Source of the DNA: Clostridia bacterium
Lineage (GTDB): Bacteria; Bacillota; Clostridia; Christensenellales; Aristaeellaceae
NCBI GenBank assembly: GCA_017447185.1
Contig: JAFSOC010000028.1
Coordinates: forward strand, 82,974-146,973
DNA length: 64,000 nucleotides
Reading direction: 5' to 3'
In this document: positions 3,983 through 56,930 of the stretch, piece after piece
Layout: each line of letters begins with the position of its first letter
How positions within the stretch are numbered: position 1 is the stretch's first letter
Made by a program: the position numbers and the translations under genes
Notes under the pieces: generated by a model
Told to the model about the DNA's origin: nothing
The model's input: the letters and a program-made list of their open reading frames with translations, nothing else
The model's database searches: none

Positions 3983-4109
3983 GCCGTGTGCGCGATGAAG
4001 ATTGGGTCCCGTGCGATCTTTCGGTGTGAACCCTGTCAGGTCCTGACGGAAGCAGCAGTAAGCATTTGACGGATGTGCTGCGGGGCTGCCCGGTCTGAGC
4101 GTATACGGT
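3983..4109 (+). ncRNA. ffs: Signal recognition particle RNA, small bacterial type
   Basis: The conserved SRP54 (Ffh)-binding apical region is visible as GTCAGGTCC followed by GACGGAAGCAGCAGTAAG (about 4035-4061). The ends pair over 11 bases: GCCGTGTGCGC at 3983 with GCGTATACGGT at about 4099, using G-C and G-U pairs. A T-rich run follows, giving termination. The RNA would form the SRP with Ffh for co-translational membrane targeting. The length of about 127 nt suits the small form without an Alu domain. The exact ends are read from the pairing and are good to a few bases. Confidence 0.9.
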
Positions 4110-53761: not shown

Positions 53762-55147
53762 TTACAGCTTTTTGCAGGTGTGTCCGCTGAACATCAGGCA
53801 GCCGTCGCCGAATTTCACTTTCAGCATACCGAGCTTCCGGCCGAACTCATCCTCTCCGATGGGATAGAGGCGGAACGTCATGCCGTCTCCCTCCTCGTCG
53901 AACGCGTTCGCCCAAAGCTCTCCGTCCTTCATGAAGACCTCATCGATGGCGAAATCGTCTTCGGGATGTTCATATTTGCCGCAGAAGCTTTCCCACCGGG
54001 ACCGGTCCGGATCCTTGACCGCGATATCCTCAATGGCAACCACCGGTTCGGCTTCCTTGTCCATGGCAATCGCCTGCAGTCCGTCCCAGAATCGGACAAA
54101 TGCCCGGATGTCCGAAAAGTCGCGGCAGTTGAGGATGACAAGCGTCCTGTCCGTATCGACAAAATGTTCAAACCAGGTTTCCAGGCCGGGCATACCGCCG
54201 CTGTGGTTGACGATCAGGCCGAACTTCTCATCGTTCCGGATCCCCCAGCCAAAGCCGTAACCTTCGTCTCCGTTCTCTTCCTCATCTTCGTCCGCACCGG
54301 CAGGCTTCCCGTTATTGAGCCGCCCGGGCGTGTACATAATCTTCTGTTCCTCACGGGTCAGCACTTTTTCTTCCCGCAGGGCCCTGTCCCAGGCCAGCAT
54401 GTCAAAGATGGTGGTATAGAGATAGTCGCATCCGTTCAGGCCATCTGACCCGTTCACGTATCCGGCATCCTTTTCCGAAACATCGGAAGGAACATAGCTG
54501 CCATCGTCTTGCAGGATCATATTGCGGGCAAAGCGGTCGGAAGGCCTGCCGTCCCTGCGGGTGTGGTAAATACCGGAATCCTTCATGCCGGCAGGCTCAA
54601 AGATGTTTTTCTTCAGATAGTCCTCGAACTTTACACCGGAAGCCTTTTCCACCAGGTTGGCCAGCAGCGTGTAGCCGATATCGGAATAGCAGAATTCCTC
54701 TCCCGGTTCGCAGAGCCGTTCCATATTGCTTTCGCTGATGAAGCGGAGCACCTCGCTGCAGGGCGGAATCCTCTTTTCATTTTCCCAGATAGGCGCAACC
54801 CATCCCGCCACATCGTAATCCGGAATACCGCTTGTATGGGTCAGAAGATGCCGGACCTTTGCACCCTGGTACGGGAATTCGGGGAAGAATTTTGTGAATT
54901 CGTCCTCCAGTCTCAGTTTTCCCTCCCGGGCCAGCAGCATCACCGCGGTTGCCGTAAACATTTTGGTGATCGATGCCATCTCGAAAATGGTATCCTCCTG
55001 CATGGGAAGCTGATTATCCGCGTCCCGGAAACCGAAAGCGCCCTTCGATACGATCTTCCCGTTTTCGGCATAAAGCCAGGTTCCGTTGAAGCTTCCCTTC
55101 TCGTACGCTTCACGGGCAAGGTTTTCCATCATTGTTTTCTTATCCAT
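53762..55147 (-). CDS. Beta-lactamase-family serine hydrolase
   Basis: A 461-residue penicillin-binding-protein-like hydrolase. The nucleophile is in MASITKMFTA (SxxK) near residue 60, then HTSGIPDYD, the Tyr motif YSDIGYTLL (YxD form) near 158 and the third motif VNHSGGMPG near 312. A C-terminal domain of about 110 residues (from WESFCGKYEHP) resembles the DUF3471-type tail of such proteins. No signal peptide. GGAGG nine bases before the ATG. An IS110 element sits about 35 bases upstream and has probably displaced its original promoter. Confidence 0.88.
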   Translation of the reverse strand: MDKKTMMENLAREAYEKGSFNGTWLYAENGKIVSKGAFGFRDADNQLPMQEDTIFEMASITKMFTATAVMLLAREGKLRLEDEFTKFFPEFPYQGAKVRHLLTHTSGIPDYDVAGWVAPIWENEKRIPPCSEVLRFISESNMERLCEPGEEFCYSDIGYTLLANLVEKASGVKFEDYLKKNIFEPAGMKDSGIYHTRRDGRPSDRFARNMILQDDGSYVPSDVSEKDAGYVNGSDGLNGCDYLYTTIFDMLAWDRALREEKVLTREEQKIMYTPGRLNNGKPAGADEDEEENGDEGYGFGWGIRNDEKFGLIVNHSGGMPGLETWFEHFVDTDRTLVILNCRDFSDIRAFVRFWDGLQAIAMDKEAEPVVAIEDIAVKDPDRSRWESFCGKYEHPEDDFAIDEVFMKDGELWANAFDEEGDGMTFRLYPIGEDEFGRKLGMLKVKFGDGCLMFSGHTCKKL

Positions 55148-55199
55148 AAGGGTCTTCCTCCTGTTACTATATATTTGCCCCTCGTTCCTGGCAGCCAGC

Positions 55200-55433
55200 C
55201 AGAGGCCTGGGACATCTCGTTGCCTAAGCTGTACAATGTGGAGGCAATGGTCTGGTAGTCACCTCCAAGAGCTTGTCGCTCGTGAAAAAGTTAGCCAGCC
55301 AACCTTCCATTGACAGCGTTCGTTTTATGTAAGTGGAGAACCTGTTAAGGGATCTCGCGTCAGCAAACAGATAGAATCGGCAATGGGAAAAGGATGGTAT
55401 ATCCATTGCAAATACGTAACGGGAGGGTTCTAC
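55200..55433 (+). ncRNA. Candidate bridge RNA of the IS110 element
   Basis: The long 5' region has several stem-loops: AGGC-loop-GCCT (55203-55225), TGGAGG-17-base loop-CCTCCA (55239-55267), GAGC-TTGTC-GCTC (55269-55281) and GAGA-loop-TCTC (from about 55336). IS110-group elements encode a bridge RNA upstream of the transposase whose loops pair with donor and target DNA. The second loop holds CAATGGT and GTCACC, which together match one site at the right end of the element. Borders are approximate and no promoter is identified. Confidence 0.45.
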
Positions 55434-56678
55434 ATGTTTGCAGTCGGCGTCGATGTTTCAAACGGCAGAAGCACAGTTGCGGTTCTCCAGTCCAAGACAA
55501 AAGTGATCCTGAAGCCATTCGAAGTTCCCCACACCCCAGAAGCTCTGGGCAGATTGGTTGACAAACTCAGCAGTCTGGATGGGGAAACCAGGGTAATCAT
55601 GGAGCATACCGGGCGATACTATGAATCGATCGCCATGTTCCTGGACAGCGCAGGATTCTTCGTTTCCGCTCTGAATCCACTGCTGTTCAAGAACTATGAG
55701 GAAGGAATTTCGGTTCATCCGGTGAAGACGGACAAGGCTGATGCGGTTCGGATTGCCAAGTTCGGTCTTGACAAGTGGGATCTGCTGCGTCAGTATGAGC
55801 CCATGGATACGATACGATATCAGCTCAAGACGCTGAACACGCAATTTCAGTTGGCCAGCAAGAGCAAAGCTGCTTTCACCAACAACCTGATTGCTCTGCT
55901 GGAACAGAACTACCCCGGAATCCGGAAGCATTTTCCCAGTCCTGCCCGCCCTGACGGCAGCCAGAAATGGGTGGACTATGTGGGAACCTTCTGGCATCTT
56001 GACTGTGTCCGGAAACTCAGCCAGAACGCTTTCACCGAACGCTACTTCAAGTTCTGCCGGAAGCATGATTACAATTTCAGCGAAGAAAAAGCCGCTGAAC
56101 TGTATCGTCATGCCCAAAGCACAATCGCTCTGGTGCCCAAGTCCGATATTTCCAAGCTCATGGTCAAAGAGGCCGTTTCCCAGTTGAATTCTGTTTCCCG
56201 GACACTGGAGACCTACAGGTCCGAGATGAATCGGCTGGCATCCCAGCTTCCTGAGTACCAGACTGTCATGGGAATGTACGGTGTCGGCCCTTCCATGGGA
56301 CCTCAGCTGATGGCGGAGATTGGTGATATCCGCCGTTTCCCGCAGAAGAACTCCATTATTGCCTTTGCAGGAATTGATCCCAAGAAGGAAGATTCGGGAG
56401 ACAAGGTATCCACAACCGGCAAAAGCACCAAGCGCGGATCGCCGCATCTGCGGAAAACTCTCTTCGTCATTATGGACATCCTGATCCAACTGAAACCAGC
56501 TGACGATCCTGTCTACCAGTTCCTGGACAAGAAGCGTTCCGAAGGCAAACCGTACTATGTCTACATGACCGCTGGCGGAACCAAATTCCTGCGCATCTAC
56601 TACGGAAAAGTCCGGGACTGCCTCATTGAAAAAGGTCTCTGGGACAAGCCTCTGATTGAATCCGGCAAATCTGATTAA
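55434..56678 (+). CDS. IS110-family transposase (DEDD/serine recombinase)
   Basis: A 414-residue IS110-type recombinase. The N-terminal RuvC-like DEDD domain shows AVGVDVSNGRST (Asp), VIMEHTGRYYES (Glu) and VKTDKADAVRIA (Asp, Asp). The C-terminal Transposase_20 region has MYGVGPSMGPQLMAEIGDIRRF with the probable catalytic Ser, then IIAFAGIDPKKEDSG and the KRGSPHLRKTL motif. GGGAGG six bases before ATG 55434 sets the start. It looks full-length and intact. Confidence 0.95.
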   Translation: MFAVGVDVSNGRSTVAVLQSKTKVILKPFEVPHTPEALGRLVDKLSSLDGETRVIMEHTGRYYESIAMFLDSAGFFVSALNPLLFKNYEEGISVHPVKTDKADAVRIAKFGLDKWDLLRQYEPMDTIRYQLKTLNTQFQLASKSKAAFTNNLIALLEQNYPGIRKHFPSPARPDGSQKWVDYVGTFWHLDCVRKLSQNAFTERYFKFCRKHDYNFSEEKAAELYRHAQSTIALVPKSDISKLMVKEAVSQLNSVSRTLETYRSEMNRLASQLPEYQTVMGMYGVGPSMGPQLMAEIGDIRRFPQKNSIIAFAGIDPKKEDSGDKVSTTGKSTKRGSPHLRKTLFVIMDILIQLKPADDPVYQFLDKKRSEGKPYYVYMTAGGTKFLRIYYGKVRDCLIEKGLWDKPLIESGKSD

Positions 56679-56791
56679 CATGGGTTGCCTTGCAACCCCT
56701 TGACTGCCCTGTAGCACTGGCAGCACGTCGTGTCAAGGATGCCGAAGGCACGGCGCAGCCGCTGTGTCCTTGATACGGCGGGATGACCGTG

Positions 56792-56845
56792 CTACTTCCC
56801 GGCTCGTTGGTCACCATTGGGTGGTGGCTTGTTTGCTTTACTCAT
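56792..56845 (-). other. Short translated-looking frame at the IS110 right border
   Basis: Minus strand: TTTGGAGG then ATG (56845) and 17 codons (MSKANKPPPNGDQRAGK) to a TAG. The ribosome site is excellent, but the peptide ends within the putative IS end, so it may be the 5' remnant of a small gene cut by the insertion, or chance. Confidence 0.35.
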
Positions 56846-56930
56846 CTTTCCTCCAAAGATTTTCTTCACTGAAAGCTTGACTTTTTATTTGTAAGCTTTT
56901 TCGTTTCGCCAGCAGCCTCTTTTATCCTTA

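Follow-up and report, generated by a model that had tools for sequence, protein, structure and literature searches.

We identified, in a stretch of 64,000 nucleotides of Clostridia bacterium DNA (hereafter the window), an element that is very probably an intact-looking insertion sequence of the IS110 group, with a left end encoding a predicted bridge RNA. We are similarly confident that the target programmed into this RNA, as read from its predicted guides, is the complement of a Shine-Dalgarno sequence, approximately TCACCTC-CT-TTC, and the window copy itself sits in the ribosome-binding site of a minus-strand serine-hydrolase gene that starts at position 55147. A preliminary description of this DNA had suggested bridge-RNA guides in a loop upstream of the IS110 transposase, and this general idea of a bridge RNA in the left end appears right, the region carrying the marks of a bridge RNA and a target loop, although the stem, the guide CAATGGT, the target site and the element border given there did not hold. 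The features of the element and its flanks are collected in Table 1.

Table 1. Features of the insertion sequence, its predicted RNAs and its flanks, in positions of the window.
Feature	Position	Strand	Basis or remark
IS110-group element, core CT to core CT	55161..56897	+	ends common to aligned relatives
Left target half (LT); on the minus strand, Shine-Dalgarno and spacer ahead of the serine-hydrolase gene (start 55147)	55150..55160	+	sequence, joined flanks, uninterrupted homologues
Left core CT	55161..55162	+	
-10-like TACTAT of the predicted circle-junction promoter	55165..55170	+	read from sequence; in the joined ends, spaced 17 nt from TTGACT (56877-56882)
Predicted bridge RNA, approximate extent (start inferred from promoter)	55177..55400	+	consensus structure, covariance model R2
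Basal helix, 5' strand (pairs with 55379-55387)	55216..55224	+	
Lower target-loop stem, 5' strand (pairs with 55303-55317; includes TGGAGG)	55228..55244	+	
Target-loop closing stem, 5' strand (pairs with 55294-55301)	55248..55256	+	
Left target guide UCACCUCC	55259..55266	+	last five letters match left flank and core C
Hairpin separating the two target guides	55267..55282	+	helix 7; 2 of its 4 pairs show compensatory changes
Right target guide UGAAAAAG	55283..55290	+	complement CTTTTTCA against site CTTTTTCG
Left donor guide UGUAAG	55328..55333	+	the element's own right end, TGTAAG-CT
Right donor guide CAAACAG	55364..55370	+	its AACAG is complementary to left-end CTGTT
IS110 DEDD/serine recombinase, 414 aa, open frame	55434..56678	+	Pfam, NCBIfam NF033542, alignment to IS621 and ISCro4 chains
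Second structured RNA-like module	56674..56797	+	between transposase stop and terminator-like hairpin
Terminator-like hairpin 3' of the transposase gene (holds 56810-56819)	56809..56829	+	relatives judged by eye to have a hairpin here too, followed by a T-run
Right end TTGACTTTTTATTTGTAAG-CT, with -35-like TTGACT and right core CT	56877..56897	+	
Right target half TTTTCG	56898..56903	+	first five letters match right target guide

Relatives for comparison comprised the best 80 of the 310 loci found with the recombinase protein, the window, and nine loci from whole-genome searches, 90 in all. The left end in aligned relatives reads CT-GTTACTATATATTTGCCCC and the right end TTGACTTTTTATTTG[CT]A[AG]G-CT, with window counterparts at 55161-55177 and 56877-56897, respectively, the latter closing on the right core CT (56896-56897), and the element measures 1,735 bp with one core counted. 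The preliminary description had put the right border at the contiguous site GTCACCATTG (56810-56819), and had seen a difficulty in a target that the insertion left whole. The aligned relatives put the right end at 56897, and this site is internal, within a terminator-like hairpin; a scan returned 4 such terminator-like sites versus 2.3 in shuffles, so that the terminator label is only suggestive. The difficulty itself does not arise for the target proposed here, which is split as expected, with a left half ending in TCTTCCTC before 55161 and a right half beginning TTTTCG after 56897.

The open reading frame within the element contains both IS110 domains of Pfam, the DEDD RuvC-like domain PF01548 and Transposase_20 PF02371 (in a scan from an upstream ATG at 55383), and scores 174.3 bits against the NCBIfam family NF033542, 'IS110 family RNA-guided transposase', with a cut-off of 140. 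Residues D7, E57, D100, D103 and S321 align to D11, E60, D102, D105 and S241 of the IS621 chain, the numbering of which is probably shifted by two residues relative to that of the published account of the IS621 catalytic residues and their roles (PMC11208158). A weak NCBIfam match to TIGR-Tas endonuclease was also found across residues 255-366 of the recombinase (35.8 bits, against a cut-off of 100). Approximately 270 nt of non-coding sequence separate the core from the transposase start codon.

This non-coding leader has a conserved predicted structure. A consensus fold over 22 left ends of the close subfamily holds 49 pairs, with 98.2% of cells paired, which falls to 31-46% when the partners are slid by 1-3 columns; the structure was counted on the alignment from which it was derived, so part of this pairing signal is to be expected. 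We counted 39 two-sided cells, compared to a shuffled mean of 14.2, and a covariation score above that of all 500 shuffles, while two other measures were weak, with 9 pairs showing two-sided changes (50 of 500 shuffles as high) and 31 further pair types (64 of 500). A covariance model built on the 22 left ends (R2) matched 16 of 18 relatives that had not been used to train it, with three of these matches partial where the locus is cut, and missed two distant IS110 elements, L126 and L130. Within the window, R2 scored 265.8 bits at the true place, besides two weak minus-strand matches of 20.9 and 12.9 bits. When folded as a single sequence, the leader gave no decisive signal (z -2.02 and -1.86). 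The stem TGGAGG/CCTCCA, which the preliminary description had taken to enclose the guide loop, lacks such conservation: 62.1% of its cells are paired across the 22 left ends, versus a shuffled mean of 61.9%, with 287 of 500 shuffles as high, and in the consensus fold positions 55242-55244 of its 5' arm pair with 55303-55305, in the lower stem.

Among Rfam families, SRP RNA (4000-4098) was the sole match in the window at the gathering score, and a permissive scan of 55140-56920 returned MIR4387 twice, sR14 and adapt33_3, all below threshold and taken as chance. A left-end RNA match of 122.2 bits was found beside a transposase 50% identical to that of the window, in an Evtepia phage genome (L145, PV036445.1), where the transposase lies among small hypothetical genes, with a tail gene on one side and an endolysin gene on the other. 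We additionally noted 5' pieces of left ends just upstream of what appear by eye to be gene starts (L108 1119-1179, L109 1501-1574 and L110 1501-1523, the last of which consists only of the first letters of a left end), as if the remainder of these elements had been lost.

Guides could be parsed in 80 of the 90 loci (L006, L007, L024, L027, L031, L032, L078, L079, L095 and L112 were dropped), of which 79 have distinct flank pairs, the one duplicate pair being removed before the guide statistics. Read in the sense direction, the left guide agrees with the left flank and core C at a mean of 0.632 of ten positions across 77 insertions, compared to 0.453 in shuffles (z 11.1), and the right guide, read as antisense, agrees with the six bases after the core at 0.713 across 65 insertions, compared to 0.338 (z 16.7). 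Neither value was reached by any of 2000 shuffles, nor when shuffling was confined to subfamilies (z 9.7 and 16.0 for the left and right guides, respectively); these shuffles ignore relatedness, although most of the flanks stem from separate insertions into different genes. With the left guide shifted by 1, 2 or 3 letters, z fell to 1.8, -0.4 and 0.3. The left guide of IS621 is likewise the 5' one of its two. In the window the matches are CCTC-C and CT-TTTTC, short at 9 of 14 flank letters, a fit that 4 of 63 other sites in the family equal and none betters. Across the family, an element's own site is the single best fit in only 20 of 64 elements, as would be expected if many of the targets are alike. 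The left guides of the window subfamily have an A where the core T would pair, and so pair with the core C only. The predicted left and right guides of the target loop share the core and match the split target.

These comparisons of loop arms with insertion flanks, which support the guides at 55259-55266 and 55283-55290, rejected the arms proposed earlier. The strings quoted in the preliminary description are where it put them (TGGAGG 55239-55244, CAATGGT 55245-55251, GTCACC 55258-55263, CCTCCA 55262-55267 and GTCACCATTG 56810-56819), and GTCACC overlaps the left target guide; it also overlaps CCTCCA, so that the supposed 3' arm is partly the stem itself. CAATGGT does not behave as a guide, AATGG[TC]CTG being present in 20 of the 22 aligned left ends though their flanks differ. 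That description read the hairpin as presenting two arms, CAATGGT and GTCACC, which both address GTCACCATTG at the right border. The letters do match as described, and dinucleotide shuffling of the element reproduced the exact geometry and lengths only 7 times in 1000, which is uncommon when taken alone and after the fact. However, a double match in any sense combination arose in 242 of 1000 shuffles of the element and 19 of 100 shuffles of the window, and when each of 74 elements was compared with the final 260 bases at its right end the window alone showed it (0 of the 73 others). With the site internal to the element and the stem unconserved, this reading is almost certainly wrong, and the double match looks like a coincidence.

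The ribosome-binding site of the transposase, GGGAGGG (55421-55427), contains GGAGG, which is complementary to CCUCC in the left target guide, and self-control of the transposase through this complementarity is possible. The same complementarity is what speaks for taking the upstream RNA as a mere regulatory leader of the transposase, which could cover that site, the preference for ribosome-binding sites then coming from the protein or from the survival of insertions. We regard this as very improbable, as each guide tracks its own flank insertion by insertion, within subfamilies too, whereas survival alone would not make the letters of an RNA follow the flanks, and the donor guides mostly follow the ends of the elements.

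In the second internal loop, the left donor guide closes with five letters identical to the right end of the same element in 70 of 76 cases. The matching guides read GCAGG (64), GCAGA (3), GTAGG (2) and GTAAG (1, the window), of which the last three are the informative variants; in the remaining 6 of 76 the guide is one letter off (L033, L055, L063, L078, L079 and L085). The right donor guide contains AACAG in 25 of the 27 elements with CTGTTAC ends and CAGTAG in all 52 with CTACTAC ends; 77 of 80 follow these patterns, the unmatched being two CTGTTAC elements and one CTATTAC element. As the two types of right donor guide coincide with two subfamilies, they may reflect a single change. The loop is therefore a predicted donor loop that matches the joined ends of the element.

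These matches also bear on whether the architecture is correctly read but the window copy is a fossil that no longer moves. Only a single full copy was assembled in this genome, the other pieces of the element being fragments at contig ends that are 85-91% identical. Against this, the reading frame is open and retains the DEDD and serine residues, the uncommon letters GTAAG occur both in the donor guide and at the right end of the window copy, and the flank halves still match the target guides, and we consider a fossil possible but rather unlikely. The pieces of a sister element at contig ends of the same genome are L002 (G000:C1), L004 (G000:C23) and L003 (G000:C33). The left end on C1 has a right guide that codes CTTTATTG, and a matching right end opens two contigs, followed by CTTTATTC in C23 and by CTTTTCTA in C33; the guide accordingly predicts a join of C1 to C23, and not to C33.

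The insertions themselves are observed at ribosome-binding sites, as in the targeting named for IS900. A start codon that lies 3-16 nt from the core and begins a frame of 60 codons or more was found in the left flanks of 48 of 75 insertions, compared to 16.1% of 15000 random left-flank positions (the count covers 75 of the 80 loci, one duplicate and four short flanks having been removed). With ATG alone the figures are 41 of 75 and 7.3%, and 31 of the 41 ATG distances are of 10-14 nt. The start-codon criterion was not satisfied by 27 of the 75 insertions, and right flanks showed no excess of start codons (6 of 65, 4 of them with ATG). The window flanks, when joined, read AAAAAGGAGGAAGACCCTTATG / GAAAAAGGAGGAAGACCCTTATG upstream of the serine-hydrolase gene, and a Shine-Dalgarno sequence stands at that place in the 8 homologues shown, among eleven other places found. 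The core CT restores AG before GAGG, and AGGAGG thereby survives the insertion in the window. The product of this gene resembles serine hydrolases of the AmpH/class C type, below the cut-off of all 25 NCBIfam families listed among 39. For the bridge RNA and recombinase together, we predict TCTTCCTCCTTTTTCG as a candidate target sequence.

The left target guide has the same eight letters as the 3' tail of 16S rRNA in three genomes of the same genus. This tail, GGATCACCTCCTTTCT, occurs three times in each of these genomes (G035, G022 and G002); it was not found in G001, and no copy was found in the assembly of the window. In the target loops with hairpins of the AAG or CAG type, 31 distinct ones including that of the window, the coded target agrees with the 16S tail at 8.7 of 14 positions, compared to a shuffled mean of 6.3 and maximum of 7.2, with 12 of 14 in the window and 13 of 14 in L011, L021 and L025. 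The other 34 loops, with TTGGAC-type hairpins, are less alike, with a raw agreement of 6.7 of 14. We considered whether the bridge RNA sends copies into the 16S genes, and rejected this, as no left flank with GATCACCTC occurs among the 80 parsed loci.

A second structured RNA-like module lies in the right end, which is 219 nt long. Its fold z is -4.88 (56676-56800), and compensatory changes were found in 13 of 33 pairs across 19 sequences, and a model of the module (R1) was made; no Rfam family matched it at the gathering score. We found the module in 12 of the best 80 of 310 loci (by pattern, with up to 5 edits), indicating that it is optional within the IS110 family, and by eye it is absent from the right ends of L037, L022, L013, L010 and L008. 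Copies without a transposase, partly in tandem, lie downstream of 23S-5S rRNA genes and on the same strand (L113, L098, L115, L120 and L135, from G001, G035 and G022). In G035, G022 and G002, all seven module matches on the rRNA strand are located 4.0-4.6 kb past the 3' end of a 16S gene, an eighth being the antisense of one of these. We rejected this trailer position as a rule beyond the genus, given module matches far from 16S tails in G069, G149 and G151, and two module loci in G005 showed no rRNA within the stretch examined.

It is conceivable, though decidedly unlikely in our estimation, that the guides converge on the 16S 3' tail, with the recognition code of the ribosome serving as the landing signal and the right-end RNA occurring also in the trailers of rRNA operons. 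If this were true, one RNA could find ribosome-binding sites in very many bacteria; guide letters might pair with mRNAs, including the GGGAGGG of the transposase, coupling transposition to translation; and, through the right-end RNA shared with trailers of rRNA operons in the genus, the element would be linked at either end to the machinery of translation.

From the ends, the structure, the correspondence of guides with flanks and donor ends, and the position on ribosome-binding sites, all of them observed, a mechanism can be proposed in which transcription, protein binding and the chemistry of strand exchange would follow IS621. Excision would join the ends of the element into a circle, and the joined ends would form the predicted promoter TTGACT-17 nt-TACTAT, from which the bridge RNA would be transcribed and then bound by the recombinase. 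The first internal loop would select the target, the left guide (55259-55266) carrying the left half of the target and the core C, and the right guide (55283-55290) being complementary to the core CT and the right half, while the donor guides of the second loop would match the joined ends of the element itself. Circular element and target CT would be brought together by the recombinase, with strand exchange at CT. The element would in this way land on ribosome-binding sites and be oriented away from the target gene, with AGGAGG left in place in the case of the window.

Bridge RNAs were reported in 2024, and by sequence alone we have here located the guides in a large clade of IS110 elements from gut Clostridia. 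The predicted guides offer an explanation, at the level of RNA, for an insertion sequence that sits on ribosome-binding sites, the preference that a 1997 title ascribes to IS900. They make the choice of target testable, and point to the existence of natural bridge recombinases that follow another target logic.

Of the traits of the IS110 group, both domains, the D/E/D/D and serine residues, a structured left-end RNA, a target loop and a donor loop are all read in this sequence. A bridge RNA in the right end marks the IS1111 group, whereas here the guides that match target and donor lie in the left end; that group is also defined by subterminal inverted repeats of 7 to 17 bp (PMC11208160). The element resembles IS621 in its DEDD and serine recombinase, left-end RNA, CT core, donor second loop and predicted joined-end promoter, a promoter of this kind being reported for IS621, and in a target loop whose left and right guides have a common core and pair to opposite target strands (PMC11208160, PMC11208158). 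It differs from IS621 in its target, the complement of a Shine-Dalgarno sequence here and a REP sequence there; in its probably longer RNA, about 224 nt compared to the 177 nt reported; in the core T that the left guide of the window subfamily leaves unpaired; and in its 219-nt right end with an extra structured module. The seekRNAs of IS110 and IS1111 elements likewise derive from a non-coding region upstream and have short matches to both target strands, and 26 insertion sequences were counted with two longer non-coding regions (PMC11187229), as in the element here, which also has a second one.

Insertion sequences close to start codons are discussed in PMC3196728, and in our search of largely open-access literature on IS110, bridge RNA and seekRNA together with ribosome-binding sites, we found no such guide described. 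For IS900 of Mycobacterium avium subsp. paratuberculosis, also of the IS110 family, the title of Doran 1997 (via PMC8141618) names translation initiation signals as targeted. The predicted bridge RNA is thus of a known kind by its architecture, and its target on ribosome-binding sites has a named precedent in IS900.
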